The notes below the pieces were generated by a model. That model was not told where the DNA came from. It did no database searches and saw only the letters and a program-made list of their open reading frames with translations. Shown here one piece after another: positions 25,026 to 57,207 of a stretch of 64,000 bases of DNA (the first letter of the stretch is position 1; each line of letters starts with the position of its first letter). The stretch is from Stomorhina lunata (lineage: Eukaryota; Arthropoda; Insecta; Diptera; Rhiniidae), in contig OW121740.1 in the NCBI GenBank assembly GCA_933228675.1, positions 159,708,486-159,772,485 on the forward strand, written 5' to 3'. The translations under genes and the position numbers were made by a program.

Positions 25026-26960
25026 TTTATGAACGATCGAAGATCTTTCCTCAAAGAAGATCATGAAAATGTATTTTTATTAGTAGATCTTAATAATCAA
25101 TCTTAATTCTCTTTAAAGAACAACTCTATGATCAATTGAATATCTCTAAAGAAAACAATTCCATGATCCATCGTTGATCTCTATAAATAACAATACCATG
25201 ATCAATCGTAGATCTTTTTTCAGAAAAATTCCATGATCGATCGTACTTATCTTTCCAGAAAAATTCCATGATCAATAGATCACTTTGTAGAACAATTCCA
25301 TGATCAATCGTAGATCTTTTTAAAGAACAATTCAATAATCAATAGATCACCTTCTAGAACAATTCCATGACCAATCGCAGATCTCTTTTGTGAAATATTC
25401 CATGATCAATCGTAGATCACTTTATAGAACAATTTCATGATCAATCGTAGATCACTTTATAGAACAATTCCATTATTAATAGTAGATCTTTTTATAGAAA
25501 AATTTCACGATCAATCTTAGTACTTTTTATAGAACTGTTCTATGATCGTTATAGATCAATTCTATGATCAATCGTAGATCTTTTTATAAATCTATTCTAT
25601 AATCAATCGTAGATCTATTTATAGAACTATTCTATGATCAATAGTAGATCTCTTTATAGAACAATTTCATGATCAACCGTTAACCTAATCAATCGTAGAT
25701 CTATTTATAGAATAATTCCATGATCAATCGAAGATAACTAATAGTAGAGTTTTTTTGTAGAACTATTTCATAATCAATCGAAGATCTTTATTTATGATTT
25801 TATTAGACCAATTTCATGTTCTTTATTAAGAACAATTCCACGACTAATCGAAGATCTTTATTTAGACAATTTCATGATTAATCGTAGATTTTTATTTAGA
25901 CTAATTTATTATTAATGGCAGATCTTCATTTAGACCAATTTCATGATAAATGACAGATCCTTATTAAGACTAATTTCTTGATCAAACGTAGATCTTTCTA
26001 AAGAACAATTTTATGATCAAAGGTAGATCTTTATAAAGACCAAATTCTAGATCATTATTAAGATCACTTCAGATCGTTTATAGAACATTTAATGATCGAT
26101 GGTAGATCCTTAATTCTTCTGTTATACTTAACTCCCAGTGGAGCACAGGGCCTCATTAGAACTTTATTAAGACCAATTTCATGACCAATCCTAGATCTTT
26201 ATTTAGACTAATTTTAAGATCAATCGTAGCAATTCACTAAGACCAATTTTAAGATCAACCGTAGACTTTTATTAAGATCAATCGTAGATCTTTATTAAGA
26301 CCAATTTTACGATCAATTGAAGATCTTTATTAAAACAAATTTAAAGATCAATCGTATATATTTATTAAAACCAATTTTAAGATCAATCGTATATATTTAT
26401 TAAAACCAATTTTAAGATCAATCGTTGATCTTGATTAAGACAAGTTTTAAGATCAATCGTTGAAATTTATTAAGAACAATTTCAAGATCAATCGTAGATC
26501 TTTATTAAGATCAATCGTAGATTTTTATTAAGAGCAATTTTAAGATCAATCGTAGATCTTTATTTGAACGAATTTTAAAATAAGTCGTAGGTCTTTATTA
26601 AGACCAATTTTAAGATCAGTCGTAGATCTTTATTAAAAGTAATTTTAAGACCAATCGTAGATCTTTATTTGAAGGAATTTTAAGATAAATCGTAGATCTT
26701 TTTTTGAACGAATTTTAAGATCAATCGTAGATCTTTATTTGAACGAATTTTAAGATTAATCGTAGATCTTTATTTGAACGAATTCTTAGATTAAGATTAA
26801 TCGTAGATCTTCTTAAGACCAATTTTAAGATCAATCGTAGATCTTTTTAAGACCAATTTTAAGATCAATCGTAGATCTTTATTTGAACGAATTTTAAGAT
26901 CAGTCGTAGATATTTATTAAGACCAATTGTAGATCTTTATTAAGACCAATCGTAGATCAA
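25026..26960. repeat. 35-bp GATC-rich satellite, diverged part
   Basis: The unit core is GATCAATCGTAGATCTTTAT plus a variable half. At the left end that half is AGAACAATTCCAT; further right it becomes TAAGACCAATTTTAA. The 35-bp period is already visible near 25400-25480. Identity between neighbours rises steadily to the right. Short unrelated inserts occur, for example at 26115-26160. Confidence 0.9.
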
Positions 26961-27838
26961 TCGTAGATCTTTATTAAGACCAATTTTAAGATCAATCGTA
27001 GATCTTTATTAAGACCAATTTTAAGATCAATCGTAGATCTTTATTAAGACCAATTTTAAGATCAATCGTAGATCTTTATTAAGACCAATTTTAAGATCAA
27101 TCGTAGATCTTTATTAAGACCAATTTTAAGATCAATCGTAGATCTTTATTAAGACCAATTTTAAGATCAATCGTAGATCTTTATTAAGACCAATTTTAAG
27201 ATCAATCGTAGATCTTTATTAAGACCAATTTTAAGATCAATCGTAGATCTTTATTAAGACCAATTTTAAGATCAATCGTAGATCTTTATTAAGACCAATT
27301 TTAAGATCAATCGTAGATCTTTATTAAGACCAATTTTAAGATCAATCGTAGATCTTTATTAAGACCAATTTTAAGATCAATCGTAGATCTTTATTAAGAC
27401 CAATTTTAAGATCAATCGTAGATCTTTATTAAGACCAATTTTAAGATCAATCGTAGATCTTTATTAAGACCAATTTTAAGATCAATCGTAGATCTTTATT
27501 AAGACCAATTTTAAGATCAATCGTAGATCTTTATTAAGACCAATTTTAAGATCAATCGTAGATCTTTATTAAGACCAATTTTAAGATCAATCGTAGATCT
27601 TTATTAAGACCAATTTTAAGATCAATCGTAGATCTTTATTAAGACCAATTTTAAGATCAATCGTAGATCTTTATTAAGACCAATTTTAAGATCAATCGTA
27701 GATCTTTATTAAGACCAATTTTAAGATCAATCGTAGATCTTTATTAAGACCAATTTTAAGATCAATCGTAGATCTTTATTAAGACCAATTTTAAGATCAA
27801 TCGTAGATCTTTATTAAGACCAATTTTAAGATCAATCG
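26961..27838. repeat. 35-bp satellite, 25 apparently identical copies
   Basis: About 25 successive units with no difference that I could see by eye, each reading TCGTAGATCTTTATTAAGAC then CAATTTTAAGATCAA. Line patterns repeat exactly every 420 bp (12 units). Each unit has a BglII site (AGATCT) and a second GATC. The run ends abruptly at AATCG|GGTATCTAC. Confidence 0.95.
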
Positions 27839-27839
27839 G

Positions 27840-29035
27840 GTATCTACTTTTGAAATTTTATTAAAGGCGTTATTGACACACAAACAAACATTCATACAAA
27901 CACATTTATAACATAAATATGTATATATATTTTTGGTTTTATATCAACCCAACCCACTGTGCATGAATATTAAAAATTTTTTTTATAAAATCTACATTGA
28001 AGAAGAAAGATTACAGAGTGCGTGTCTATTTTTGCGTAACAAATAAACGTTTTTGATATGAAAAAATTGCGTAGGAAAAAAATTTGTATGAAAATATTTC
28101 AAAAGACACATTACAAATGTACAAAGTGCCCTCAATTCGAAATTAATTGTTTGTGCAAATAAAAATGTAATCCATATTAAGTGACCGATATTTAAATACT
28201 TCCGTAATTTATTAGATTTTTATAGAGAAAAACAAATTTTTAATTATTTCAAATAAAGATTGTGAACTTATATATTTAATTAAAGCAACATGATCAAAAT
28301 CATTAAATTATGATTTATAATTCTCACTTAGTTTCTAAAGTTTCCAAATTTTTGATTATAAAAACTTTTTATAAGTTTATATGAATATGGAACAAAAACC
28401 TTATTTACTTTTAAAGAGTTAACCAAAATATTTAATTACTTTTTCCTATATCTTAAAATGTTATGCAACCTTTGAAATAAATCATTTATTAACAATCAAC
28501 CAACCACTTTTATTGTCATTTAAAATTCTTCAAAAATTTCCACAAGTGAATAATTTCTTTTCAATATTTGTCTTTTAAAAGAATACATTTTTTGTTTCTT
28601 AACACTTTTAGGGCTGGGGTTGTTTAGAGTTAACTTATTTATGTATAATTATTGATTTTTATTATAATATAAAATTATAAAATCACCTTTACTACCTGCA
28701 TTGCCATATATACTTATACAATCTCTCATACTCGGATTTCATGTATTTAGAACAAATATGACGACTAAATAGAAATTGTTCATTAAATTTACATACATAT
28801 TTATTGTATTATCTCTATCATATCGTAATTGGTAAAGTAGATATGTATAAAGATGGTTAGACGACAGATACTCATGCTTAGTTTGATATAATTATTGATT
28901 AGTAGAGGGAAGTAACTTTTTTTTCTAAGGTTGAGTTTTTGGGGACAAAAGAAATTTTCATTCCCTTTATTGAAATTCCAAATACTCTCCTTTCACGTTC
29001 ATAAAATAAGCTAAGTAATCTTTGAATTGTTCTTT
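27840..29035. other. 1.2-kb spacer between opposed 35-bp arrays
   Basis: Non-repetitive AT-rich DNA with no coding frame. AACCCACTGTG at 27951-27961 resembles the inner face of the right end of the MITE at 15276 but stands alone. Nothing else is identified. Confidence 0.5.
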
Positions 29036-29039
29036 AAAT

Positions 29040-30135
29040 ATATCATCGGTTGATCGATGATCATAAAATTGGTCGAAATAAAGATCGAAGATTGATCATT
29101 AAAGATCTACGATTGCTCATAAAAATTATTTAAATGAAGATCTACGATTGATCGTGAAATCTGTCTAAATAAAGATCTTCGATTGATCATGAAATTGGTC
29201 TAAATTAAGATAAGATCTACGATTAATCGAAACTTACCCAAATAAAGGTCTTAATAAAGATCTACGATTGATCTCAAAATTGGTATTAATAAAGATCTAC
29301 TATTGATCTTAAAATTGGTCTTAATAAAGATCTACGATTGATCTCAAAATTGGTATTAATAAAGATCTACTATTGATCTTAAAATTGGTCTTAATAAAGA
29401 TCTACGATTGATCTCAAAATTGATCTTAATAAAGATCTACGATTAATATTAAAATTAGTCTTAATTAAGATTAACGATTGATCTTAAAATTAGTCTTAAT
29501 AAAGATCAACGATTGATCTTAAAATTGGTCTAAATAAAGATCTACGATTGATCTTAAAATTGGTCTTCATAAAGATCTACGATTGATCTCAAAATTGGTC
29601 TTAATAAAGATCTACAATTAATCTTAAAATTGATCTTAATAACGATCTACGATTGATCTTAAAATTGGTCTTAATAAAGATCTACGTTTGATCTTAAAAG
29701 TGGTCTTAATAAAGATCTTCGATTGATCATCAAATTGGTCTTAATAAAGGTCTACGATTGATCTTAAATTTGGTCTTAATAAAGATCTTCGATTGATCTC
29801 AAAATTGGTGTTTAATAAAGACCTACGATTGATCATTAAATTGGTCTTTATAAAGATCTACAATTAATCTTAAAATTGGTCTTAACAAATTTCTACGATT
29901 GATCTTTAAATTGGTCTTAATAAAGATCTAAGTTAGATCTTAAAATTGGTCTTAATAAAGATCTACGGTTGATCTTAAAATTGGCCTTAATAAAGATCTG
30001 CGATTGATCTTAAATTTGGGCTTAATAAAGATCTACGATTGATATTAAAATTGGTCTTAATAAAGATCTACGATTGATCATGAAATTGGTCTGAATAGGA
30101 TCTACGATTAATCGTCAAATTGGACTTAATAAAGA
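29040..30135. repeat. 35-bp satellite in inverted orientation
   Basis: About 31 copies of the reverse complement of the 25-27.8 kb unit, with AATAAAGATCTACGATTGAT and CTTAAAATTGGTC. They are more diverged from each other than the perfect block at 27 kb; the best-conserved stretches are around 29270-29600. The array continues at 30555-30725 after an inserted MITE. Confidence 0.93.
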
Positions 30136-30143
30136 TCTAGGAT

Positions 30144-30546
30144 TAGGGTTGCCAGACACAAATCCTGAAAATGCTGGACATAAGGAAAAAAAAGCTTAAC
30201 AACCCAAAAATTAGCTGGACATTAATAATGAAAAACTTGCTTAAATAATTAATTTCGATAAATCTTAAAATTTCTGATAAACCGAAATCGTCCGAGATCT
30301 GAAAAATATTCTCGGCGTTTGACCTTAATAGGTTTTTGATATATGCCTTACTTTTACTTTTGGAACACCATTGGTGATCGGTATTTAAGGTTCGGCATAG
30401 CCGAATATGGCACTCTAACTTGTTTTTCATAAAAATAGTTTTTCCAAAAATTTCAATTCTTCACCTTTCAGCTGGACAAATTTTATTTTAGCTTGACACT
30501 GGACAAGCACTTAAAAGGCTGGACAATCCAGTCAAATCCAGCCCTA
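30144..30546. mobile_element. 403-bp hAT-type MITE inserted in the satellite
   Basis: Ends are TAGGGTTGCCAGAC (left) and ...CCAGTCAAATCCAGCCCTA (right), imperfect inverted repeats. A perfect 8-bp direct repeat, TCTAGGAT, abuts both ends (30136-30143 and 30547-30554). Subterminal GCTGGACA words recur (about 30212, 30472, 30491, 30521), as in hAT elements. An 8-bp duplication with TAGGG-type ends points to hAT. The interior holds a dispersed-repeat fragment (GTTCGGCATAGCCGAATATG near 30391). The 95-codon minus frame inside it has no recognisable transposase motif. Confidence 0.85.
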
Positions 30547-30725: not shown

Positions 30726-31275
30726 AAAACCCGATAATAATATTGGACCAAAGACAATTTAATATAAAGGTATTGTACTCCATAAATTTTTTTGTCAAAG
30801 GTGAAATTAAAGTGGATAAAGAACAATGAAAAATACAAACAAAGATACATTTTATGAGCACGTGTGTGTGCCTTAGCTTTCTCTCACTTTTTTATGGGAT
30901 TTTTCAAAACGACCATGCGAAAAATTAATATATGGTGCAACATTTTTATATTATAGAGTTGGACTATATATGTATTACTCAATGGATTATAAAAGACTTA
31001 TACCTAAAAACTTTAATAAAGATATTGGATTATTTTTTTTTTTGTATAAAATTTAAAACCCAGCCTTAGATTAATTTTTACTAAATTACGATCAAACCCC
31101 TATAAATTTGTCTTTATTGCTTCAGAGATTTGTCACATTTTCTTGTAATTTATGGTTATAATCCTTAAATTCTCATCCCAATTCAATAAAATTTCATCAA
31201 AAGTTATTTGAATGTTTAACAAATCAAATTAAATTGTTTTCAATCTAAACAAGTCAAAGATTTTTAAAAATTTAC
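30726..31275 (-). other. Start of the cnc intron downstream of the CncC exon
   Basis: Reading on the minus strand, this follows the GAG|GTAAAT donor at 31275. It is AT-rich with immediate in-frame stops and no second exon. The next cnc coding exon is not seen anywhere to the left in this window. Confidence 0.6.
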
Positions 31276-31276
31276 C
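31270..31276 (-). promoter_or_regulatory. cnc: Splice donor of the CncC exon
   Basis: The minus strand reads AAAGAG|GTAAAT, a good fly 5' splice site. The last exonic base is 31276. Cutting here leaves exactly 330 whole codons, so the next exon must begin in phase 0. Confidence 0.85.
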
Positions 31277-32265
31277 TCTTTCGTTAATTCCACTGTATTG
31301 ATAAAAGGACTTAAATCCACTTCGCTAACATTTACCCCACTATCCTCCGATTGATCCTCAGGTTCCTTCTTCACCGAAACTTCCTCAATTGCCAGTTCAT
31401 CAGTGCCTAAAGTAGTTACAGTTCTAGTATCCATAACACCTATAAGCAAGGCCTTATCATCTTCATCATCCAATTGTTCCAATTTAATGCCAGCACCTTC
31501 ATCGGGATTAGGAAATGTATCATTCAAAGCTACTGCACCCTCCGATTCGGAAGTAGAGGCAGAGCTTCCTATGGTAGGTAGGAAAGCATCCAGCTGAAGA
31601 TCAAAGAGATTATTATCCTGTTGACCATCTTTGAGAGGTAAGCTGCCATAATGGGAGTTCATAATGGGTAAATCGTTGAAATCACTGAGATCAGCTAAAT
31701 TTTGTTCCCAAACCGAGCGCTGATCTTGAAAGTTTTCGGAATTGAGAAACAATTCTATTTCAGAAGTGGGCAAGTTATTGAAATGCGAGGCATTTGTGTT
31801 ACCAGGGGCGGTTACAACAGAACTTACGCTAGCCGTTGAGGGATCTAGGGAAGTTGAGGCTGAGCTTGTTGTGCTCGAAGAACCTGTCGAGGGATTACTA
31901 CCCGTTGTTCCGGGTATGGCTTGCATTTCCTGCATGGCTGCCGTTTGATTGGAATTTTCATTGGAGACATTGAGTAAATAGGCCGTAACATTATATTGAT
32001 TGGCATGATGTTCATTTTGTCGATCAAATAGTATTAAATCCTCAATTAAAGGCATCATGGTCTTGCGATTGGCATAGGGATATTCCACCATGGGTACCGC
32101 ACGCAACATTTCCAATTCCCAACCATCGCCATCTCGTAGCTCTAGTTGGGAGTCCCAGTTGCGTAAACGCTGCTGCAGATAATTATCAGGATCGACATGC
32201 AGCAGACTTAAGGCCAAAGCCAATTGCAACATTTTCATGGCATAAGACTTTTTGTTCGAGATCAT
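31276..32265 (-). CDS. cnc: cap-n-collar isoform C, N-terminal coding exon
   Basis: This encodes the first 330 residues of a CncC-type protein, the insect CNC-bZIP factor related to vertebrate Nrf1/Nrf2. In flies CncC pairs with small Maf and drives oxidative and xenobiotic stress genes under Keap1 control. The N-terminus MISNKKSYAMKMLQLALALS with LLHVDPDNYL is characteristic; residues 9-23 form a hydrophobic stretch comparable to the Nrf1 NHB1/ER-targeting segment. Residues 118-150 are Ser/Thr-rich. Residues 186-270 and 288-318 are acidic and activation-like. Two SUMO-type sites are visible (IKLE 260-263, VKKE 298-301). The Keap1-binding DLG/ETGE motifs and the bZIP are absent and must lie in later exons. 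The ATG has a good fly context (TCAAAATG) with an in-frame TAG 33-35 nt upstream. The frame exits in phase 0 at AAAGAG|GTAAAT; the three codons VNF beyond it are intron. The exon is clearly GC-richer than its surroundings. Confidence 0.92.
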
Positions 32266-33389: not shown

Positions 33390-36075
33390 AGTTTTCTACA
33401 GAAAAGTTGATAGAAAGAAGAGTTTTTAATAGAAAAGTTGACAGTAGGAAGACTTTTCTATAGAAGAAATGACAGTGGAAAGAGTTTTCTGTAGAAAAAA
33501 TGACAATGGGAAGTGTTTTATATAGAAAACTTGACAATGAAAAGAGTTTTCTATAGAAAAAATTAAAGTGGGAAGAGATTTCTATAAAAAAATGACAGTG
33601 GAAAGAGTTTTCTATAGAAAAAATGAGAGCGGGAAGAGTTTTCTATAGAAAAAAAATGAGGGTGGGAAGAGTTTTCTATAGAAAAAATGACAGTAGGAAA
33701 AGTTTTCTAAAGAAAAAATGACAGTGGGAAGAGTTTTCTATCGAAAGAATGACAATGGAAAGAGTTTTCTATAGAAAAAATTGCAGTTTTCTATAGTGGA
33801 AAAAGAGTTCTCTGTACAAAAAATGACAGTGTTAAGAGTTTTCTATAAAAAAATGACAGTGGGAAAAGTTTTCTTTAGAAAAAATGACAGTGGGAAGAGT
33901 TTTCTATAGAAAAAATGACAGTGGGAAGAGTTTTCTATAGAAAAATTACAGTAGGAAGAGATTTCTATAGAAAAAATTACAGTGGGGAAAGTTTTCTTTA
34001 GAAAAAATTACAGTGGGAAAAGTTTTCTATAGAAAAAATTACAGTGGGAAGTGTTTTCTATAGAAAAAATTACAGTGGGAACAGTTTTCTATAAAAAAAT
34101 GACAGTGGGAAAAGTTTTCTTTAGAAAAAAAAAAAATACAGTGGGAAGATTTTTATATAGAAAACTTGATAATGAGAAGAGTTTTCTATAGAAAAAATTA
34201 AAGTGGGAAGAGTTTTCTATAAAAAATGACAGTGGGAAGAGTTTTCTATAGAAAAAATTATAGTGGGAAGAGTTTTCTATAGAAAAAATTACAGTAGGAA
34301 GAGTTTTCTATAGAAAAAATTACAGTGGGAAAGTTTTCTATCGAAAAAATAACGTTGGGAAGAGTTTTCTATAGAAAAAATGACAGTGGGATAAGTTTTC
34401 TATAAAAAAATGACAGTGGGGAGAGTTTTCTATAGAAGAGTTTTCTATAAAAAAAAATACAGCGGTAAGAGTTTTCTATAGAAAAAATTACAGTGGAAAA
34501 AGTTTTCTACAGAAAAAATGACCGTGGGAAGAGTTTTCTATAGAAAAAATGACAGTCGGAAGAGTTTTCTATAGAAAAAAATGACAGTGGCAAGAGTTTT
34601 CTATAGAAAAAAATGACAGTGGGAAGAGTTTTCTATAGAAAAAATTACAATAGGAAAAGATTTCTACAGAAAAAATTAATGTGGGAAGAGTTTCCTATAG
34701 AAAAAATGACAGTGGGAAGAGTTTTCTATAGAAAAAATGACAGTGGGAAGAGTTTTCTATAAAAAAATGACAGTGGGGACAGTTTTCTTTAGAAAAATGA
34801 CAGTCTGAAGAGCTTTCTATAAAAAAATACAGCGGTAAGAGTTTTCTATAGAAAAATGACAGTGGAAAAAGTTTTCTACAGAAAAAATTACCGTGGGAAG
34901 AGTTTTCTATAGAAAAAATGACAGTGGGAAGAGTTTTCTATAGAAAAAAATTATAGTGAGAAGAGTTTTCTATAGAAAAAAATTACAATAGGAAGAGATT
35001 TCTATAGAAAAAATTAATGTGGGAAGAGTTTCCTATAGAAAAAATGACAGTGGGAAGAGTTTCCTATAGAAAAAATGACAGTGGGAAGAGTTTTCTATAG
35101 AAAAAATGACAGTGGGAAGAATTTTCTATTGAAAAAATTAAAGTGGGAAGAGTTTTCTATAGAAAAAATGACAGTGGGAAGAGTTTTCTATAGAAAATAT
35201 TACAGTGGGAAGAGTTTCCTATAGAAAAAAATACAGTGGGAGGAGTTTTCTATAGAAAAATTACAGTGGGAAGAGTTTTCTACAAAAAAAAAGACAGTGG
35301 GAAGAGTTTTCTACTGAAAAAATTACAGTGGGAAGAGTTATCAATAGAGGAAATGACAATAGGAAGATTTTTTTATAGAAAAAATGACATTGGGAAGTTT
35401 TCTATAGAAAAAACGACATTGAAAAGTATTTTCTATAGAAAAAATTACAGTGGAAATAGTTTTCTATAGAAAAAATGATAGTGGGAAGAGTTTTCTATAG
35501 AAAAAAATTACAGTTTTCTGTAGAAGAAATGACAGTGGGAAGAATTTTCTGTACAAAAAATGACAGTGGGAAGAGTTTTCTGTACAAAAAATGACAGTGG
35601 GAAGAGTTTTCAATTAAAAAATGACAGTGGGAAGTGTTTTCTATAAAAAAAAAATTACATTGGGAAGAGTTTTCTTTACACTAAATGATAGTTGGAAGAG
35701 TTTTATGTAGAAAATATGACAGTGCGAAGAGTTTACTATAGAAAAGTTGACAGTGGGAAGCGTTTTCTATAGAAAAGTTGACAGTAGAAAGAGTTTTTTT
35801 TATAGAAAAGCTGACAGAGTTTTCTATAGAAAAGTTGACAGTGGGAAAAGTTTTCTATAGAAAAGTTGACAGTGGGAAAAGTTTTCTATAGAAAAGTTGA
35901 CATTGGGAAAAGTTTTCTATAGAAATGTTAACAGTGGGAAAGTTTTCTATAGAAATTGAATGTAAGACTGTGACAGCGGGAAGAAAAATAATAGTGGAAA
36001 GATGTTTCTGTAAAAAAGTTGACAGTGGGAGGAGTTTATCCTATAGAAATGTTGACATAAGGAAAGAACTTATAT
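33390..36075. repeat. 31-bp satellite
   Basis: About 85 copies of a 31-bp unit with GTGGGAAGAGTTTTCTATAG followed by AAAAAATGACA or AAAAAATTACA. The TGACA and TTACA variants interleave. The right end (about 35730-36070) shifts to AAAAGTTGACAGTGGGAA. The frame at 35236-35469 is only the unit translated. Confidence 0.94.
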
Positions 36076-36649
36076 AGGGAGGCAGGAAAACGGATATTGA
36101 TCATTATGTTTTTCTTAGGACGGCCAAATGATTTTTACAAGAAATCCAGAATTTAAAAATAGAAAGTAAATTCCATTACAATTCCTTGACGCAGACATTT
36201 AAAAATAAATCACTTAAATTGTCTGAGTTTTACAAGAAAATCTAAAGGACATAAAGATATGTAGACATGGAATATGCAGACATGTCTAAAATTGGATAAC
36301 TTTCAAACCCAAAGAAAATTTACTTCTGAAATTTTTTATGAAAAAAAATCCAAAATTTTGCTTGAAATAATTGATGTGTGTGAAGATAAATATACCGAGT
36401 TAAATATGTCTTTGGTATAGTTATAAAAAATATCGCATGCGATAAAAAAGTTTTCAGTATTTTTAATATGGATATTTTTACAGAAATTTTCAACATTTTA
36501 ATAAATTTATATTATAAAATTGCAGTTATATTAAAAAATATCACCGAATTTACCTGTATATACAACAAAAGGCAAATTTAAATAGTTTTTGTCACATATT
36601 TAATATAAAAAGTTCTTAGTAAAAAAATGAGGCATATGAGTTTTCTGAC

Positions 36650-39600
36650 AGATTTGGCCACTGTGGCCAAACGCTAAGATGTCAATAAATGGGAGCTAGT
36701 GGAGAATAAAGGCAAGGAATACTACTATTTAACTACGTTAATGGTTTTTCCCAATTGTATTTGAGAGAAATTTTATACTTTGTTGAAAATATGACTTAGT
36801 CAAAAAAATTACATATGAGTTCTCTGAAGGATTTGGCCACTGTGGCCAAACGCTAAGATGTCAACGAATTGAAGCTAGTGGAGAATAAAGTCAAGGAATA
36901 CTACTATTAAACTACGTTAATGGTTTTTCCGAATTGTATTTGAGAGAAATTTTATACTTTGTTGAAAATATGACTTAGTCAAAAAAATGTCATATGAGTT
37001 CTCTGAGGGATTTGGCCACTGTGGCCAAACGCTAAGATGTCAACGAATTGAAGCTAGTGGAGAATAAAGTCAAGGAATACTACTATTAAACTACGTTAAT
37101 GGTTTTTCCGAATTGTATTTGAGAGAAATTTTATACTTTGTTGAAAATATGACTTAGTCAAAAAAATGTCATATGAGTTCTCTGAGGGATTTGGCCACTG
37201 TGGCCAAACGCTAAGATGTCAATCAATGGGAGCTAGTGGAGAATAAAGGCAAGGAATACTACTATTTAACAACGTTAATGGTTTTTCTGAATTGTATTTG
37301 AGAGAAATTTTATACTTTGTTGAAAATATGACTTAGTCAAAAAAATTACATATGAGTTCTCTGAAGGATTTGGCCACTGTGGCCAAGCGCTAAGATGTCA
37401 ATAAATGGGAGATAGTGGAGAATGAAGGCAAGGAATAATACTATTAAACTGCGTTAATGGTTTTTCTGAATTGTATTTGAGAGCAATTTTATACTTTGTT
37501 GAAAATATGACTTAGTCAAAAAAATGTCATATGAGTTCTCTGAGGGATTTGGCCACTGTGGCCAAACGCTAAGATGTCAATCAATGGGAGCTAGTGGAGA
37601 ATAAAGGCAAGGAATACTACTATTAAACTAAGTTAATGGTTTTTCCGAATTGTATTTGAGAGAAATTTTATACTTTGTTGAAAATATGACTTAGTCAAAA
37701 AAATGTCATATGAGTTCTCTGAGGGATTTGGCCACTGTGGCCAAACGCTAAGATGTCAACGAATTGAAGCTAGTGGAGAATAAAGTCAAGGAATACTACT
37801 ATTAAACTACGTTAATGGTTTTTCCGAATTGTATTTGAGAGAAATTTTATACTTTGTTGAAAATATGACTTAGTCAAAAAAATGTCATATGAGTTCTCTG
37901 AGGGATTTGGCCACTGTGGCCAAACGCTAAGATGTCAATCAATAGGAGCTAGTGGAGAATAAAGGCAAGGAATACTACTATTTAACTACGTTAATGGTTT
38001 TTCCGAATTGTATTTGAGAGAAATTTTATACTTTGTTGAAAATATGACTTAGTCAAAAAAATGTCATATGAGTTCTCTGAGGGATTTGGCCACTGTGGCC
38101 AAACGCTAAGATGTCAATCAATGGGAGCTAGTGGAGAATAAAGGCAAGGAATACTACTATTAAACTACGTTAATGGTTTTTCCGAATTGTATTTGAGAGA
38201 AATTTTATACTTTGTTGAAAATATGACTTAGTCAAAAAAATGTCATATGAGTTCTCTGAGGGATTTGGCCACTGTGGCCAAACGCTAAGATGTCAATCAA
38301 TGGGAGCTAGTGGAGAATAAAGGCAAGGAATACTACTATTTAACTACGTTAATGGTTTTTCCCAATTGTATTTGAGAGAAATTTTATACTTTGTTGAAAA
38401 TATGACTTAGTCAAAAAAATTACATATGAGTTCTCTGAAGGATTTGGCCACTGTGGCCAAACGCTAAGATGTCAATGAATAGGAGCTAATGGAGAATAAA
38501 GGCAAGGAATACTACTATTTAACTACGTTAATGGTTTTTCCCAATTGTATTTGAGAGAAATTTTATACTTTGTTGAAAATATGACTTAGTCAAAAAAATT
38601 ACATATGAGTTCTCTGAAGGATTTGGCCACTGTGGCCAAACGCTAAGATGTCAATGAATAGGAGCTAGTGGAGAATAAAGGCAAGGAATACTACTATTTA
38701 ACTACGTTAATGGTTTTTCCCAATTGTATTTGAGAGAAATTTTATACTTTGTTGAAAATATGACTTAGTCAAAAAAATTACATATGAGTTCTCTGAAGGA
38801 TTTGGCCACTGTGGCCAAGCGCTAAGATGTCAATAAATGGGAGATAGTGGAGAATGAAGGCAAGGAATAATACTATTAAACTGCGTTAATGGTTTTTCTG
38901 AATTGTATTTGAGAGCAATTTTATACTTTGTTGAAAATATGACTTAGTCAAAAAAATGTCATATGAGTTCTCTGAGGGATTTGGCCACTGTGGCCAAACG
39001 CTAAGATGTCAATCAATGGGAGCTAGTGGAGAATAAAGGCAAGGAATACTACTATTTAACTACGTTAATGGTTTTTCCCAATTGTATTTGAGAGAAATTT
39101 TATACTTTGTTGAAAATATGACTTAGTCAAAAAAATTACATATGAGTTCTCTGAAGGATTTGGCCACTGTGGCCAAACGCTAAGATGTCAATGAATAGGA
39201 GCTAATGGAGAATAAAGGCAAGGAATACTACTATTTAACTACGTTAATGGTTTTTCCCAATTGTATTTGAGAGAAATTTTATACTTTGTTGAAAATATGA
39301 CTTAGTCAAAAAAATTACATATGAGTTCTCTGAAGGATTTGGCCACTGTGGCCAAACGCTAAGATGTCAACGAATTGAAGCTAGTGGAGAATAAAGTCAA
39401 GGAATACTACTATTAAACTACGTTAATGGTTTTTCCGAATTGTATTTGAGAGAAATTTTATACTTTGTTGAAAATATGACTTAGTCAAAAAAATGTCATA
39501 TGAGTTCTCTGAGGGATTTGGCCACTGTGGCCAAACGCTAAGATGTCAACGAATTGAAGCTAGTGGAGAATAAAGTCAAGGAATACTACTATTAAACTAC

Positions 39601-41734
39601 GTTAATGGTTTTTCCGAATTGTATTTGAGAGAAATTTAATACTTTGTTGAAAATATGACTTAGTCAAAAAAATGTCATATGAGTTCTCTGAGGGATTTGG
39701 CCACTGTGGCCAAACGCTAAGATGTCAATCAATGGGAGCTAGTGGAGAATAAAGGCAAGGAATACTACTATTTAACTACGTTAATGGTTTTTCTGAATTG
39801 TATTTGAGAGAAATTTTATACTTTGATGAAAATATGACTTAGTCAAAAAAATTACATATGAGTTCTCTGAAGGATTTGGCCACTGTGGCCAAACACTAAG
39901 ATGTCAAAGGAATACTACTATTAAACTACGTTAATGGTTTTTCCGAATTGTATTTGAGAGAAATTTTATACTTTGTTGAAAATATGACTTAGTCAAAAAA
40001 ATGTCATATGAGTTCTCTGAGGGATTTGGCCACTGTGGCCAAACGCTAAGATGTCAATCAATGGGAGCTAGTGGAGAATAAAGGCAAGGAATACTACTAT
40101 TTAACTACGTTAATGGTTTTTCTGAATTGTATTTGAGAGAAATTTTATACTTTGATGAAAATATGACTTAGTCAAAAAAATTACATATGAGTTCTCTGAA
40201 GGATTTGGCCACTGTGGCCAAACACTAAGATGTCAACGAATTGAAGCTAGTGGAGAATAAAGTCAAGGAATACTACTATTAAACTACGTTAATGGTTTTT
40301 CCGAATTGTATTTGAGAGAAATTTTATACTTTGTTGAAAATATGACTTAGTCAAAAAAATGTCATATGAGTTCTCTGAGGGATTTGGCCACTGTGGCCAA
40401 ACGCTAAGATGTCAATCAATAGGAGCTAGTGGAGAATAAAGGCAAGGAATACTACTACTTAACTACGTTAATGGTTTTTCCGAATTGTATTTGAGAGAAA
40501 TTTTATACTTTGTTGAAAATATGACTTAGTCAAAAAAATGTCATATGAGTTCTCTGAGGGATTTGGCCACTGTGGCCAAACGCTAAGATGTCAATCAATG
40601 GGAGCTAGTGGAGAATAAAGGCAAGGAATACTACTATTAAACTACGTTAATGGTTTTTCCGAATTGTATTTGAGAGAAATTTTATACTTTGTTGAAAATA
40701 TGACTTAGTCAAAAAAATTACATATGAGTTCTCTGAAGGATTTGGCCACTGTGACCAAACGCTAAGATGTCAATCAATGGGAGCTAGTGGAGAATAAAGG
40801 CAAGGAATACTACTATTAAACTACGTTAATGGTTTTTCCGAATTGTATTTGAGAGAAATTTTATACTTTGTTGAAAATATGACTTAGTCAAAAAAATGTC
40901 ATATGAGTTCTCTGAGGGATTTGGCCACTGTGGCCAAACGCTAAGATGTCAATCAATAGGAGCTAGTGGAGAATAAAGGCAAGGAATACTACTACTTAAC
41001 TACGTTAATGGTTTTTCCGAATTGTATTTGAGAGAAATTTTATACTTTGTTGAAAATATGACTTAGTCAAAAAAATGTCATATGAGTTCTCTGAGGGATT
41101 TGGCCACTGTGGCCAAACGCTAAGATGTCAATCAATGGGAGCTAGTGGAGAATAAAGGCAAGGAATACTACTATTAAACTACGTTAATGGTTTTTCCGAA
41201 TTGTATTTGAGAGAAATTTTATACTTTGTTGAAAATATGACTTAGTCAAAAAAATGTCATATGAGTTCTCTGAAGGATTTGGCCACTGTGGCCAAACGCT
41301 AAGATGTCAATCAATGGGAGCTAGTGGAGAATAAAGGCAAGGAATACTACTATTAAACTACGTTAATGGTTTTTCCGAATTGTATTTGAGAGAAATTTTA
41401 TACTTTGTTGAAAATATGACTTAGTCAAAAAAATTACATATGAGTTCTCTGAAGGATTTGGCCACTGTGACCAAACGCTAAGATGTCAATGAATAGGAGC
41501 TAGTGGAGAATAAAGGCAAGGAATACTACTATTAAACTATGTTAATGGTTTTCCCCAATTGTATTTGAGAGAAATTTTATACTTTGTTGAAAATATGACT
41601 TATTCAAAAAAATGTCATATGAGTTCTCTGAAGGATTTGGCCACTGTGGCCAAACGCTAAGATGTCAATGAATAGGAGCTAGTGGAGAATAAAGGCAAGG
41701 AATACTACTATTTAACTACGTTAATGGTTTTTCC
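36650..41734. repeat. 179-bp unit array, left arm of the foldback element
   Basis: About 28 units. The landmark TTTGGCCACTGTGGCCAAA recurs every 179 bp (GGCC at 36656, 36835, 37014 and onward). Units fall into a few alternating types, such as CATATGAGTTCTCTGAGGGA versus ...TGAAGGA, and CAATCAATGGGAG versus CAACGAATTGAAG. One unit near 39895-39915 is shortened by a deletion. Variant markers recur at multiples of the unit: GGCCAAGCGC at 37381 and 38813 (8 units apart), GTGACCAAAC at 40751 and 41467 (4 units). Confidence 0.96.
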
Positions 41735-44700
41735 TTCAGAGAACTCATATGTAATTTTTTTGACTAAGTCATATTTTCAACAAAGTATAAAATTTCTCTC
41801 AAATACAATTGGGAAAAACCATTAACGTAGTTAAATAGTAGTATTCCTTGCCTTTATTCTCCATTAGCTCCTATTCATTGACATCTTAGCGTTTGGCCAC
41901 AGTGGCCAAATCCTTCAGAGAACTCATATGTAATTTTTTTGACTAAGTCATATTTTCAACAAAGTATAAAATTTCTCTCAAATACAATTGGGAAAAACCA
42001 TTAACGTAGTTAAATAGTAGTATTCCTTGCCTTTATTCTCCACTAGCTCCCATTGATTGACATCTTAGCGTTTGGCCACAGTGGCCAAATCCCTCAGAGA
42101 ACTCATATGACATTTTTTTGACTAAGTCATATTTTCAACAAAGTATAAAATTTCTCTCAAATACAATTCGGAAAAACCATTAACGTAGTTTAATAGTAGT
42201 ATTCCTTGCCTTTATTCTCCACTAGCTCCCATTGATTGACATCTTAGCGTTTGGCCACAGTGGCCAAATCCCTCAGAGAACTCATATGACATTTTTTTGA
42301 CTAAGTCATATTTTCAACAAAGTATAAAATTTCTCTCAAATACAATTCGGAAAAACCATTAACGTAGTTAAATAGTAGTATTCCTTGCCTTTATTCTCCA
42401 TTAGCTCCTATTCATTGACATCTTAGCGTTTGGCCACAGTGGCCAAATCCTTCAGAGAACTCATATGTAATTTTTTTGACTAAGTCATATTTTCAACAAA
42501 GTATAAAATTTCTCTCAAATACAATTGGGAAAAACCATTAACGTAGTTAAATAGTAGTATTCCTTGCCTTTATTCTCCACTAGCTCCCATTGATTGACAT
42601 CTTAGCGTTTGGCCACAGTGGCCAAATCCCTCAGAGAACTCATATGACATTTTTTTGACTAAGTCATATTTTCAACAAAGTATAAAATTTCTCTCAAATA
42701 CAATTGGGAAAAACCATTAACGTAGTTAAATAGTAGTATTCCTTGCCTTTATTCTCCACTAGCTCCCATTGATTGACATCTTAGCGTTTGGCCACAGTGG
42801 CCAAATCCCTCAGAGAACTCATATGACATTTTTTTGACTAAGTCATATTTTCAACAAAGTATAAAATTGCTCTCAAATACAATTCAGAAAAACCATTAAC
42901 GCAGTTTAATAGTATTATTCCTTGCCTTTATTCTCCACTATCTCCCATTTATTGACATCTTAGCGTTTGGCCACAATGGCCAAATCCTTCAGAGAACTCA
43001 TATGTAATTTTTTTGACTAAGTCATATTTTCAACAAAGTATAAAATTGCTCTCAAATACAATTCAGAAAAACCATTAACGCAGTTTAATAGTATTATTCC
43101 TTGCCTTTATTCTCCACTATCTCCCATTTATTGACATCTTAGCGTTTGGCCACAGTGGCCAAATCCTTCAGAGAACTCATATGTAATTTTTTTGACTAAG
43201 TCATATTTTCAACAAAGTATAAAATTTCTCTCAAATACAATTGGGAAAAACCATTAACGTAGTTAAATAGTAGTATTCCTTGCCTTTATTCTCCACTAGC
43301 TCCCATTGATTGACATCTTAGCGTTTGGCCACAGTGGCCAAATCCCTCAGAGAACTCATATGACATTTTTTTGACTAAGTCATATTTTCAACAAAGTATA
43401 AAATTTCTCTCAAATACAATTGGGAAAAACCATTAACGTAGTTAAATAGTAGTATTCCTTGCCTTTATTCTCCACTAGCTCCCATTGATTGACATCTTAG
43501 CGTTTGGCCACAGTGGCCAAATCCCTCAGAGAACTCATATGACATTTTTTTGACTAAGTCATATTTTCAACAAAGTATAAAATTTCTCTCAAATACAATT
43601 GGGAAAAACCATTAAAGTAGTTAAATAGTAGTATTCCTTGCCTTTATTCTCCACTAGCTCCTATTCATTGACATCTTAGCGTTTGGCCACAGTGGCCAAA
43701 TCCTTCAGAGAACTCATATGTAATTTTTTTGACTAAGTCATATTTTCAACAAAGTATAAAATTTCTCTCAAATACAATTGGGAAAAACCATTAACGTAGT
43801 TAAATAGTAGTATTCCTTGCCTTTATTCTCCATTAGCTCCTATTCATTGACATCTTAGCGTTTGGCCACAGTGGCCAAATCCTTCAGAGAACTCATATGT
43901 AATTTTTTTGACTAAGTCATATTTTCAACAAAGTATAAAATTTCTCTCAAATACAATTGGGAAAAACCATTAACGTAGTTAAATAGTAGTATTCCTTGCC
44001 TTTATTCTCCACTAGCTCCCATTGATTGACATCTTAGCGTTTGGCCACAGTGGCCAAATCCCTCAGAGAACTCATATGACATTTTTTTGACTAAGTCATA
44101 TTTTCAACAAAGTATAAAATTTCTCTCAAATACAATTGGGAAAAACCATTAACGCAGTTTAATAGTATTATTCCTTGCCTTTATTCTCCACTATCTCCCA
44201 TTTATTGACATCTTAGCGTTTGGCCACAATGGCCAAATCCTTCAGAGAACTCATATGTAATTTTTTTGACTAAGTCATATTTTCAACAAAGTATAAAATT
44301 GCTCTCAAATACAATTCAGAAAAACCATTAACGCAGTTTAATAGTATTATTCCTTGCCTTTATTCTCCACTATCTCCCATTTATTGACATCTTAGCGTTT
44401 GGCCACAGTGGCCAAATCCTTCAGAGAACTCATATGTAATTTTTTTGACTAAGTCATATTTTCAACAAAGTATAAAATTTCTCTCAAATACAATTGGGAA
44501 AAACCATTAACGTAGTTAAATAGTAGTATTCCTTGCCTTTATTCTCCACTAGCTCCCATTGATTGACATCTTAGCGTTTGGCCACAGTGGCCAAATCCCT
44601 CAGAGAACTCATATGACATTTTTTTGACTAAGTCATATTTTCAACAAAGTATAAAATTTCTCTCAAATACAATTGGGAAAAACCATTAACGTAGTTAAAT

Positions 44701-45850
44701 AGTAGTATTCCTTGCCTTTATTCTCCACTAGCTCCCATTGATTGACATCTTAGCGTTTGGCCACAGTGGCCAAATCCCTCAGAGAACTCATATGACATTT
44801 TTTTGACTAAGTCATATTTTCAACAAAGTATAAAATTTCTCTCAAATACAATTGGGAAAAACCATTAAAGTAGTTAAATAGTAGTATTCCTTGCCTTTAT
44901 TCTCCACTAGCTCCTATTCATTGACATCTTAGCGTTTGGCCACAGTGGCCAAATCCTTCAGAGAACTCATATGTAATTTTTTTGACTAAGTCATATTTTC
45001 AACAAAGTATAAAATTTCTCTCAAATACAATTGGGAAAAACCATTAACGTAGTTAAATAGTAGTATTCCTTGCCTTTATTCTCCATTAGCTCCTATTCAT
45101 TGACATCTTAGCGTTTGGCCACAGTGGCCAAATCCTTCAGAGAACTCATATGTAATTTTTTTGACTAAGTCATATTTTCAACAAAGTATAAAATTTCTCT
45201 CAAATACAATTGGGAAAAACCATTAACGTAGTTAAATAGTAGTATTCCTTGCCTTTATTCTCCACTAGCTCCCATTGATTGACATCTTAGCGTTTGGCCA
45301 CAGTGGCCAAATCCCTCAGAGAACTCATATGACATTTTTTTGACTAAGTCATATTTTCAACAAAGTATAAAATTTCTCTCAAATACAATTGGGAAAAACC
45401 ATTAACGTAGTTAAATAGTAGTATTCCTTGCCTTTATTCTCCATTAGCTCCTATTCATTGACATCTTAGCGTTTGGCCACAGTGGCCAAATCCTTCAGAG
45501 AACTCATATGTAATTTTTTTGACTAAGTCATATTTTCAACAAAGTATAAAATTTCTCTCAAATACAATTCGGAAAAACCATTAACGTAGTTTAATAGTAG
45601 TATTCCTTGCCTTTATTCTCCACTAGCTCCCATTGATTGACATCTTAGCGTTTGGCCACAGTGGCCAAATCCCTCAGAGAACTCATATGACATTTTTTTG
45701 ACTAAGTCATATTTTCAACAAAGTATAAAATTTCTCTCAAATACAATTCGGAAAAACCATTAACGTAGTTTAATAGTAGTATTCCTTGACTTTATTCTCC
45801 ACTAGCTTCAATTCGTTGACATCTTAGCGTTTGGCCACAGTGGCCAAATC
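41735..45850. repeat. 179-bp unit array, right arm (inverted)
   Basis: About 23 units in reverse orientation. Rare variants repeat at exactly 1253 bp (7 x 179): ATTAAAGTAG at 43611 and 44864, and GGCCACAATGG near 42969 and 44222. A seven-unit block was therefore duplicated within the arm. The arm starts in mid-unit at 41735, so the two arrays are not in register at the junction. Confidence 0.96.
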
Positions 45851-46135
45851 TGTCAGAAAACTCATATGCCTCATTTTTTACTAAGAACTTTTTATATTAA
45901 ATATGTGACAAAAACTATTTAAATTTGCCTTTTGTTGTATATACAGGTAAATTCGATGATATTTTTTAATATAACTGCAATTTTATAATATAAATTTATT
46001 AAAATGTTGAAAATTTCTGTAAAAATATCCATATTAAAAATACTGAAAACTTTTTTATCGCATGCGATATTTTTTATAACTATACCAAAGACATATTTAA
46101 CTCGGTATATTTATCTTCACACACATAAATAATTG

Positions 46136-47699: not shown

Positions 47700-50600
47700 T
47701 ATTTAATTTTTCAAAAATTTACTTTTTATACGAAATTTTTTAAAAATTTACTTTTTCTAGGAAATTTTTCAAAAATTTACTTTTTTAGGACATTTTTCAA
47801 AAATTGACTTTTTATAGAAAATTTTTTAAAAATTTACTTTTTATAGGAAATTTTTCAAAAATTTGCTTTTTATAGGAAATCTTTCAAATATTTACTTTTT
47901 ATAGGTAATTTTTTCAAAAATTTACTTTTTTATAGGAAATTTTTTTAAAAAGTTTACTTTTTATAGGAAATTTTTCAAAAATTTACTTTTTATAGGAAAT
48001 TTTTCAAAAATTTACTTTTTATAGGAAATTTTTCAAAAATTTACTTTTTATAGGAAATTTTTCAAAAATTTACTTTTTATAGGAAATTTTTCAAAAATTT
48101 ACTTTTTATAGGAAATTTTTCAAACATTTGCTTTTTATAGGAAATTTTTCAAAAATTCACTTTTTTTAGGAAATTTTTGAAAAATTTGCTTTTTATAGGA
48201 AGTTTTTTAAAAATTTAGTTTTTATAGGAAATTTTTCAAAAATTTACTTTTTATAGGAAATTTTTCAAAAATTTACTTTTTATAGGAAATTTTCCAAAAA
48301 TTTACTTTTTATAGGAAATTTTTCAAAAATTTACTTTTTATAGGAAATTTTTCAAAAATTTCCTTTTTATAGGAAATTTTTCAAAAATTTACTTTTTATA
48401 GGAAATTTTTCAAAAATTTACTTTTTATAGGAAACTTTTCAAAAATTTACTTTTTTTAGGAAATTTTTTAAAAATTAACTTTTTATAGGAAATTTTTCAA
48501 ATATTTACTTTTTATAGGTAATTTTTTCAAAAATTTACTTTTTATAGGAAAATTTTCAAAAATTTACTTTTTATAGGAAATTTTTCATAAATTTACTTTT
48601 TATAGGAAATTTTTCAAAAATTTACTTTTTATAGGAAATTTTTCAAAAATTTACTTTTTATAGGAAATTTTTGAAAAATTTGCTTTTTATAGGAAATTTT
48701 TCAAAAATTTACTTTTTAAAGCAAATTTTTTAAAAATTTACTTTTTATAGGAAATTTTTCAAAAATTTACTTTTTATAGGAAATTTTTTAAAAATTTACT
48801 TTTTATAAGAAATTTTAGAAAAATTTAGTTTTTTAGGAAATTTTTCAAAAATTTACTTTTTATAGGAATTTTTTTCAAAAATTTACTTTTTATAGGAAAT
48901 TTTTCAAAAATTTACTTTTTATAGGAAATTTTTCAAACATTTGCTTTTTATAGGATATTTTTTAAAAATTTGCTTTTTATAGGAAATTTTTCAAAAATTT
49001 ACTTTTTATGGGAAATTTTTCAAAAATTTACTTTTTATAGGAAATTTTTCAAAAATTTACTTTTTATAGGAAATTTTCCAAAAATTTACTTTTTATAGGA
49101 AATTTTTCAAAAATTTACTTTTTATAGGAAATTTTTCAAAAATTTACTTTTTATAGGAAATTTTTCAAAAATTTACTTTTTATAGGAAATTTTTCAAAAA
49201 TTTACTTTTTATAGGAAATTTTTCAAAAATTTACCTTTTAGAGGAAATTTTTCAAAAATTTACTTTTTAGAGGAAATTTTTCAAAAATTTGCTTTTTATA
49301 GGATATTTTTTAAAAATTTGCTTTTTATAGGAAATTTTTCAAAAAATTTACTTTTTATAGGAAAATTTTTCAAAAAATTTACTTTTATAGGAAAATTTTC
49401 AAAAATTTACTTTTTATAGGAAATTTTTCAAAAATTCACTTTTTATGGGAAATTTTACAAAAATTTACTTTTTATAGGAAACTTTTCAAAAATTTACTTT
49501 TTTTAGGAAATTTTTCAAATATTTACTTTTTATAGGTAATTTTTCAAAAATTGACTTTTTATAGGAAATTTTTCAAAAATTTACTTTTTATAGGAAATTT
49601 TTCAAAAATTTACTTTTTATAGAAAATTTTTCAAAAATTTACTTTTTATGGGAAATTTTACAAAAATTTACTTTTTATAGGAAATTTTTCAAAAATTTAC
49701 TTTTCATAGGAAATTTTTCAAAAATTTACTTTTTATAGGAAATTTTTCAAAAATTTACTTTTCATAGGAAATTTTTCAAAAATTTACTTTTTATAGGAAA
49801 TTTTTCAAAAATTTACTTTTTATAGGAAATTTTTCAAAAATTTACTTTTTATAGGAAATTTTTCAAAAATTTACTTTTTATAGGAAATTTTTCAAAAATT
49901 TACTTTTTATAGGAAATTTTTCAAAAATTTACTTTTTATGGGAAATTTTTCAAAAATTTACTTTTTATGGGAAATTTTTCAAAAATTTACTTTTTATAGG
50001 AAATTTTTCAAAAATTTACTTTTTATAGGAAATTTTCCAAAAATTTACTTTTTATAGGAAATTTTTCAAAAATTTACTTTTTATAGGAAATTTTTCAAAA
50101 ATTTACTTTTTATAGGAAATTTTTCAAAAATTTACTTTTTATAGGAAATTTTTCAAAAATTTACTTTTTATAGGAAATTTTTCAAAAATTTACTTTTTAT
50201 AGGAAACTTTTCAAAAATTTACTTTTTTTAGGAAATTTTTTAAAAATTAACTTTTTATAGGAAATTTTTCAAATATTTACTTTTTATAGGTAATTTTTTC
50301 AAAAATTTACTTTTTATAGGAAAATTTTCAAAAATTTACTTTTTATAGGAAATTTTTCATAAATTTACTTTTTATAGGAAATTTTTCAAAAATTTACTTT
50401 TTATGGGAAATTTTTCAAAAATTTACTTTTTATAGGAAATTTTTCAAAAATTTACTTTTTATATGAAATTTTTCAAAAATTTACTTTTTATGGGAAATTT
50501 TTCAAAAATTTACTTTTTATAGGATATTTTTTAAAAATTTGCTTTTTATAGGAAATTTTTCAAAAATTTACTTTTTATAGGAAATTTTTCAAAAATTTAC

Positions 50601-51228
50601 TTTTTATAGGAAATTTTTCAAAAATTTACTTTTTATAGGAAATTTTTCAAAAATTTACTTTTTATAGGAAATTTTTCAAAAATTTACTTTTTATAGGAAA
50701 TTTTTCAAAAATTTACTTTTTATAGGAAATTTTTCAAAAATTTACTTTTTATAGGAAATTTTTTAAAAATTTGCTTTTTATAGGAAATTTTTCAAAAATT
50801 TACTTTTTATAGGAAATTTTTCAAAAATTTACTTTTTATAGGAAATTTTTTAAAAATTTGCTTTTTATAGGAAATTTTTCAAAAATTTACTTTTTATGGG
50901 AAATTTTTCAAAAATTTACTTTTTATAGGAAATTTTTCAAACATTTGCTTTTTATAGGAAATTTTTTAAAAATTTACTTTTAATAGGAAATTTTTCAAAA
51001 ATTTACTTTTTATAGGAAATTTTTGAAAAATTTACTTTTTATAGGAAATTTTTTAAAAATTTACTTTTTATAGGAAATTTTTCAAAAATTTACTTTTTAA
51101 ATTTTTGAAAAATTTCCTATAAAAAGTAAATTTTTGAAAAATTTCCTATAAAAAGTAAATTTTTGAAAAATTTAATATAAAAAGTAAATTTTTCAAAAAT
51201 TTACTTTTTATAGGAAATTTTTCAACAA
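47700..51228. repeat. 29-bp satellite, about 120 copies
   Basis: The unit is ACTTTTTATAGGAAATTTTT plus CAAAAATTT. Long runs are identical (about 47960-48110, 49090-49230 and 50580-50760). Segments recur as blocks: near 48420-48600 and 50200-50390 share the same series of odd variants (GAAACTTTTC, a TTTTTTTAGG unit, ATTAACTT, GGTAATTTTTTC, TTTTTCATAAATTT). Four units at about 51093-51190 are inverted. Confidence 0.96.
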
Positions 51229-54189: not shown

Positions 54190-55005
54190 GTACGAAACGA
54201 AAAAATTTTGCAAAATATTTTTCATAGCAAAATTCATATAAAAAGTAAATTTTCGAGAAAATTTCTATAAAAAGAAAATTTTCGAGAAAATTCCTATAAA
54301 AAGTAAATTTTCGAGAAAATTTGCTATAAAAAGTAAATTTTTGAAAAATTTTTTTATAAAAAGTAAATTTTTGAAAAATTTCCTATAAAAAGTAAATTTT
54401 TGAAAAATTTCCTATAAAAAGTAAATTTTTGAAAAATTTCCTATAAAAAGTAAATTTTTGAAAAATTTCCTATAAAAAGTAAATTTTTGAAAAATTTCCT
54501 ATAAAAAGTAAATTTTTGAAAAATTTCCTATAAAAAGTAAATTTTTGAAAAATTTCCTATAAAAAGTAAATTTTTGAAAAATTTCCTATAAAAAGTAAAT
54601 TTTTGAAAAATTTCCTATAAAAAGTAAATTTTTGAAAAATTTTCTATAAAAAGTAAATTTTTGAAAAATTTCCTATAAAAAGTAAATTTTTGAAAAATTT
54701 CCTATAAAAAGTAAATTTTTGAAAAATTTCCTATAAAAAGTAAATTTTTGAAAAATTTCCTATAAAAAGTAAATTTTTGAAAAATTTCCTATAAAAAGTA
54801 AATTTTTGAAAAATTTCCTATAAAAAGTAAATTTTTGAAAAATTTCCTATAAAAAGTAAATTTTTGAAAAATTTCCTATAAAAAGTAAATTTTTGAAAAA
54901 TTTCCTATAAAAAGTAAATTTTTGAAAAATTTCCTATAAAAAGCCAATTTTTGAAAAATTTCCTGTAAAAAGTAAATTTTTGCAAAATTTCCTATAAAAA
55001 GTATA
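54190..55005. repeat. 29-bp satellite, inverted relative to 47.7-51.2 kb
   Basis: About 27 copies of the reverse complement of the 47.7-51.2 kb unit (AAAAAGTAAATTTTTGAAAA and ATTTCCTAT). Those from 54361 to 54940 are nearly identical; the first four are diverged (TTTTCGAGAAAATT). Confidence 0.95.
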
Positions 55006-56852: not shown

Positions 56853-57203
56853 CAAATTTTGATCAAAATTTCACTATATGAAAATTTTGATTAAAATTTT
56901 ACTATATGAAAATTTTGATCAAAATTTCACTATATGAAAATGTTGATAAAAATTTCACTACATGAAAATTTTGATCAAAAATTCACTATATGAAAATTCT
57001 GATTAAAATTTCACTTTAGAAATTTAGAAAATTTTGATCAAAAATTCACTATATGAAAATTTTGATCAAAATTTCACTATGTGAAAATTTTGATCAAAAG
57101 TTCACTATATGAAAATTTTGATCGGAATTTCATTATATGATAATTTTGGTAAAAATTTCGCTATATAAAAATGTTGATCAAAATTTCACTTTAGAAAAAT
57201 TTT
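56853..57203. repeat. 28-bp satellite, inverted array
   Basis: About 12 copies in reverse orientation (TTTTGATCAAAATTTCACTA, TATGAAAA), directly abutting the forward array at CATATATATGCAAATTTTGA. The two arrays form a foldback of roughly 350 bp per arm. Confidence 0.93.
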
Positions 57204-57207
57204 GGGG

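Follow-up and report, generated by a model that had tools for sequence, protein, structure and literature searches.

The 64,000-nucleotide stretch of Stomorhina lunata DNA analysed here (the window; C1:159708486-159772485 of a 728-Mb assembly of 104 contigs) very probably contains a non-autonomous foldback DNA transposon, which would be mobilised in trans and would have lost an ancestral gene from its middle, its two arms having since changed largely separately. The element is regarded as mobile because its ends are exact, 9-bp duplications flank them and near-identical relatives are located at different sites.

Architecture of the element in the window

The element comprises positions 36374 to 46126 (9753 bp) and is bounded by exact 9-bp duplications. 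Its GC content is 32.9%, compared to 22.9% in the remaining AT-rich window, in which several minisatellites were also detected by TRF. The target-site duplication AAATAATTG is present as a direct repeat at 36365-36373 and 46127-46135, where it adjoins ATGTGTGTGAAG... and the exact inverted copy of this sequence; the tips of the element (ATGTGTGTGAAGATAAATATACCGAG) are exact inverted copies of each other. They belong to two non-tandem shoulders of 241 bp each (36374-36614 on the forward strand, included in the 26-bp tip census below, and 45886-46126 on the reverse strand), which form terminal inverted repeats with a single mismatch between left and right.

Between the shoulders, a period of 179 bp was detected by TRF on both sides (36615 onward and 41732-45868). 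The left arm (36615-41734, forward strand) consists of 29 units, the last of which is cut by the junction, and displays an additional period of 537 bp, corresponding to three units. The right arm (41735-45885, reverse strand) is an opposed array of 23 units. A period of 150 bp, found once and in two copies (39757-40057), represents a shortened unit. Orientation flips at approximately 41734/41735, and the arms including their shoulders are unequal in length (approximately 5.36 kb left and 4.39 kb right). The unit consensus contains TTTGGCCACTGTGGCCAAA, a 19-base near-palindrome, the symmetry of which is broken by the central base only.

These data corroborate an earlier note on this DNA, which had described a foldback of approximately 9.75 kb made of opposed 179-bp arrays, with near-perfect shoulders and a 9-bp target duplication abutting both ends exactly. 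Its description of the two halves as reverse complements over their full length did not hold, since the arms differ in unit number, their units are arranged in an order close to shuffled and the outer 3534 bp of both arms are 96.2% identical. Exact inverted matches between the arms extend over 666 bp at most, and this longest one lies out of register. No long ORF is present in the window element; the window as a whole contains one ORF of at least 150 aa, which is located outside of the element (31264-32265) and gave no match in a Pfam search. One ORF may resemble cap-n-collar, in line with an origin from a fly.

Genomic copies and unit order of the arms

A 296-base query including the left shoulder matched at least 42 places in the genome (40 of 99 candidates were scored). 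The 26-bp tip was found at 86 places with up to three mismatches (47 forward, 39 reverse), and the reversed tip pattern, used as control, at none in the 728-Mb genome. When matching ends had to face inward at a distance of 30 kb or less, 70 of the 86 ends formed 35 pairs and 16 remained single. The pairs span 727 to 18,512 bp (median 7,476). Twenty-three complete elements were read, namely that of the window and 22 chosen from the best-scoring shoulders; for the other 12 of the 35 pairs, no complete sequence was read.

A perfect 9-bp duplication flanks 22 of these 23 elements (20 of the first 21 tabulated, followed by L038+35 and L036+33), each time with a different sequence; one such flanking repeat would arise by chance with a probability of approximately 4e-5 at the local base composition. 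L031 is the sole exception and has no target duplication, which, like the 16 single ends, counts against the transposon reading. The duplications of the complete elements are AT-rich (84% versus 77% in the flanks), and they are intact in elements of up to 18.5 kb. One insertion (L027) is nested in the shoulder of another copy: bases 1-128 of the shoulder are followed by the insert and then by bases 120-241, so that 9 bp are repeated. Removal of the insert and of one 9-bp copy restores 241 bp with one difference to the window shoulder (empty-site comparison); the far end of the outer copy pairs with C11:70009791. That the unit had moved as one element and is more than a palindromic satellite, as proposed earlier, is thus supported by the different duplications. 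The suggested shoulder search yielded copies with the same precise ends, and shoulder copies devoid of precise ends or direct repeats, which the earlier note had named as evidence to the contrary, did not appear, save L031 with its missing duplication.

The mean pairwise difference among 46 shoulders is 0.75%, and left and right shoulders inside elements differ by 0.73% on average and by 3.5% at most (L036+33). Because mean shoulder divergence amounts to just 0.75%, the family is young. For a 21-base piece of the unit, 1031 exact matches were counted genome-wide (control: none), 845 of them inside the 23 elements read; the others have to include those of the 12 remaining pairs. A single unit place outside paired elements (C1:43783168) was found among the matches listed (to C1:112750885). 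Large free unit arrays are not indicated among these matches, and a reading as free satellite is unsupported by the share of occurrences within elements.

The 933 units of the 23 elements represent 368 distinct sequences. Unit order was scored as the mean common-subsequence fraction, based on exact unit identity. The arms of the window element reached 0.26 against each other, which is at the upper edge of the range obtained with shuffled order (mean 0.23, 95% range 0.17-0.26). With the order between arms at about the shuffled level, a model of mirror-image arms was dropped. Among the copies read, arms consist of 2 to 70 units, and the distance from arm to arm in the 23 elements ranges from fused up to 8.1 kb. 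The 18.5-kb (L017+18) and 16.4-kb (L012+13) copies are made of arrays throughout; an autonomous copy within these longest elements was excluded, as they are without a coding middle. An unrelated segment is located in the middle of L009.

One central junction is common to eight of the 23 elements; it has the same form in seven of them and is inverted in the eighth, L017+18. The junction of L022+23 is nearly the same, giving nine elements in total, the arms of which are 10 to 70 units long. Another junction is common to L011 and L014+15, and the same fusion is contained in L030. By eye, the junction of the window element is of its own type, unlike those of the other 22 elements. The common junctions suggest that the middle was lost internally and that the deletion product spread afterwards, presumably in this order.

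For the comparison of unit order, end units were used to assign the arms in seven of the nine elements, L019 and L024 being set aside; one arm has 16-34 units in these elements and its partner 10-70. Between elements, homologous arms scored 0.67 and 0.58, the two arms within one element 0.25, compared to 0.22 for shuffled (97.5th percentile 0.32) and 0.21 for reversed order. Since a separate unit order is kept per arm across copies, the arms are separate lineages, altered where blocks were gained or lost locally, and not freshly mirrored. Units diverge by 5.3% between the arms of one element, by 5.1% within arms and by 6.5% between elements. The between-arm value is closer to the within-arm than to the between-element value, which argues against a fully independent history of the arms.

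Coding cores and alternative explanations

A transposase-like core was detected in three copies, all truncated or broken. L034 has approximately 4.5 kb between its arms, and a core of the same type is interrupted by other sequence in L036+33. The third copy (C7:106842510-106854611, 12.1 kb, tips at C7:106842510 and 106854586) contains a 517-aa open frame followed by one of 126 aa in a different frame, as read in the sequence around the core. At the DNA level, a 1001-base stretch of the core had 21 matches, three of them close (L034, L036+33 and C7:106849520-106850520) and the rest shorter or more diverged. The earlier description of the element as transposase-free holds for the window copy; the proposed search for a transposase between the arms led to these three cores elsewhere, all of them defective.

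The last ORF of L034 gave a borderline Pfam match to the Ulp1/C48 domain (20.8 bits with a cut-off of 20.7, E 3.7e-4), and the other two core ORFs tested had no Pfam match above the cut-off. The MULE domain (PF10551), for which 14 other matches were found in the same genome, was not found in the three core ORFs or in seven homologues (P0001-P0007, 684-1177 aa), four of which have a C48 match (P0001, P0002, P0006 and P0007). For this Ulp1-protease-bearing lineage, Pfam gives no transposase call. The alignment of the homologues contains FFDATGNIV-, DWS.ALIN-, QICC.HF- and SNSPVES-like blocks (P0003 is without part of the region), which by eye resemble DDE transposase motifs. The core of the foldback family starts after the FFDATGNIV-like block, which the copies seen do not have. 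In the three core copies (that on C7 was read partly), the part surrounding the putative first catalytic aspartate was not seen, and because of this no self-mobilising copy was recognised. Two open frames without interruption, of 1142 and 1135 aa, match residues 1-682 of the 684 of P0001 at C10:80588231-80590327 and C10:98904136-98906232; their identity to the core protein is 43%. No family tip with up to three mismatches lies near either place in the tip census. Because of the 43% identity and the missing tips, these relatives may be members of other families. P0001 was also modelled with AlphaFold from the seven sequences; at a mean pLDDT of 56.3, the model was too weak for a fold search.

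Long palindromes are a known product of fold-over reads, and the 666-bp inverted match between the window arms, although out of register, would fit a single real array read back onto itself. Such an assembly or inverted-read artefact is nevertheless very unlikely: it predicts mirrored order and near-identical arms instead of the nearly shuffled order, the 29 versus 23 units and the 96.2% identity observed. Furthermore, the flanks share 9 bp only, in direct and not in inverted orientation, and 35 such pairs exist, with one specific junction in eight of the 23 elements at differing arm lengths. Hardly any credence can be given to a satellite array inverted by chance, or a segmental duplication, without any transposon. 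The units do build kb-size arrays with a higher-order period, but neither the exact ends, nor 22 different duplications among 23 elements, nor the concentration of the unit 21-mers in elements (one place outside a pair among the matches listed) would be expected of it.

It is improbable that hairpin-mediated conversion keeps the two arms alike. The unit divergence between arms, near that within arms and below that between elements, would agree with such co-evolution, whereas the separate unit orders and end units of each arm, kept over seven copies of one lineage, speak against it. Unlikely is also the mobilisation of the foldback by an unrelated transposase, for example a hAT- or P-like one, with the Ulp1 core as a captured passenger gene. 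The core is defective in its three copies and without a recognised Pfam transposase domain, and the middle segment of L009 is unrelated, all of which would fit a passenger. On the other hand, the duplication is 9 bp long, as opposed to 8 bp, the usual length for hAT and P elements, and the 7 bp of Galileo, and related proteins are encoded at many separate loci of the genome, like transposase genes.

Proposed mobilisation and relation to known foldback elements

In the favoured reading of a foldback transposon moved in trans, movement would be of the cut-and-paste type, brought about by a transposase that is supplied from elsewhere and recognises the tips and possibly also sites repeated along the arrays. 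The near-palindrome of the unit is an additional candidate binding site by analogy with Galileo, the repeats of which are said to hold secondary binding sites (PMC3573991; see also PMC3688188). The ancestor may have carried a transposase gene between its arms, related to proteins of approximately 1000-1180 aa in which a DDE-like region is combined with a domain like the Ulp1/C48 protease and with a C-terminus that is rich in cysteine and zinc-finger-like. This gene would have disappeared when internal deletions, which probably arose as breaks were repaired, joined the arms at differing junctions; later, units may have been gained and lost largely per arm, either by unequal exchange or through errors in copying. 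The element's mobiliser today is probably either an intact copy that was not found or one of the relatives with an uninterrupted frame. A more extensive proposal, in which the two arms are separately inherited arrays without mirrored copying, the transposase ancestry is Ulp1-bearing and unit sites bind the transposase and thereby select for long arms, is put forward tentatively.

The family belongs among the foldback transposons, as reflected by its inverted arms of tandem repeats, precise ends with duplications at different sites and a variable or missing middle, and is closest to Tetris and FB. It appears to be an undescribed family of this known class, FB/NOF having been compared by description only; no paper combining foldback and 179 bp was found in a literature search. 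Tetris of Drosophila virilis is characterised, in the sections of its description consulted, as a non-autonomous foldback with a terminal flanking domain, arms of approximately 220-bp tandem repeats in arrays of varying length (TIRs up to 1735 bp), 8-10-bp duplications, large free repeat arrays and three complete copies, none of which is coding (PMC4079207). The family described here resembles it in its flanking shoulder, tandem-repeat arms, variable arrays, non-autonomy and a duplication within the 8-10-bp range. Unlike Tetris as presented there, it has a 179-bp unit, arms of up to 70 units, a coding core and 23 complete copies read, and shows no sign of large free arrays among the matches listed. 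The Tetris unit shares a 37-bp stretch (approximately 80% alike) with the flanking domain, according to the same part of the source (PMC4079207); here, the longest exact word shared by shoulder and unit is 10 bp, a value for exact words which a diverged stretch could escape.

FB of D. melanogaster is described, in the text accessible to us, with inverted ends, opposed tandem repeats in unequal arms, a 9-bp duplication, a variable middle and blocks of five 27-31-bp repeats (PMC7642927). The opposed unequal repeat arms, 9-bp duplication and variable middle are found here as well, and no period of 27-31 bp was detected by TRF within 36615-45868 (only 179, 537 and once 150). The likeness to FB noted earlier therefore applies to the foldback structure and does not extend to membership in the Drosophila FB family. 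Tm1 of root-knot nematodes, as far as the excerpt covers it, has FB-like composite ends, mostly 9-bp duplications, an internal motif of approximately 14 bp and members with or without a transposase gene, the encoded protein being of the Phantom type and containing the MULE domain of Pfam (PMC3169594). Composite ends, 9-bp duplications and coding as well as non-coding members are common to both, but the MULE domain was not seen here; of the traits of Mutator/MULE elements, the present family shows a duplication in the 8-10-bp range and no PF10551 in the three core ORFs and seven homologues. Galileo, in the portion of the paper used, is a P superfamily element with long TIRs and 7-bp duplications, one group of which contains approximately 210-bp tandem repeats that expand independently and are unequal in number between the TIRs, and some deletion derivatives consist of TIRs only (PMC3573991). 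Long inverted arms with unequal repeat numbers and copies reduced to their inverted arms are likewise present here, the duplication being 9 bp instead of 7 bp.

New are the family itself, the size of its arms, the absence of mirroring between them as measured in many copies, and a core with a Ulp1 domain. Foldback elements have been linked to chromosome inversions (PMC7642927, PMC3573991, each in the part consulted) and are often without an identified transposase, as exemplified by the three non-coding copies of Tetris. In S. lunata, a single genome offers 35 paired ends, a shared-junction lineage of varied arm length, defective coding copies and uninterrupted protein relatives, so that the growth of arms, the turnover of units and the origin of the transposase can be tested directly in one genome.

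Arm junctions and ends of other copies

In one complete foldback copy of the same genome (L038+35), the central junction, where the two arms are fused, coincides exactly with the repeat unit's palindromic site GGCCACTGTGGCC; this is a hint that the palindrome may participate in arm fusion. The arms of another copy (L009) are separated by approximately 450 bp of unrelated DNA, terminating in the foldback family's own tip sequence. This middle segment might be either a captured piece or the remnant of another element. A third copy (L031, C7:64041917-64051916) is whole and has precise ends, while a target duplication is lacking. It could be the outcome of recombination between copies and, as such, a possible inversion breakpoint.

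Protein relatives and scattered tips

Two uninterrupted transposase-like frames of approximately 1140 aa with nearly equal scores are located on contig C10 (80588231-80590327 and 98904136-98906232) and may represent a separate, recently active family. In the genome-wide tip census, three tips with three mismatches were found on contig C7 (83712512, 83722793 and 83733074), spaced exactly 10,281 bp apart, perhaps a tandem duplication bearing an older relative. A near-perfect tip (one mismatch) was found at C59:11902, with a distant Ulp1-type protein match (6554-7033) approximately 5 kb away on the same contig.

Surroundings of the element in the window

The element is flanked by several long AT-rich minisatellites with units of 28–35 bp (5328-9055, 26157-30144, 33417-35955, 47705-51225, 54229-55003 and 55932-57204). 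By eye, the 35-bp unit of 26.2–27.8 kb recurs inverted at 29.2–30.1 kb, and the 29-bp unit of 47.7–51.2 kb at 54.2–55.0 kb.

An ORF of 333 aa is encoded on the minus strand (31264-32265), for which no match was obtained in the Pfam comparison and which appears to resemble the N-terminal exon of the C isoform of cap-n-collar. Since this ORF is approximately 4 kb away, the foldback element may be positioned inside or next to a cap-n-collar-like gene.
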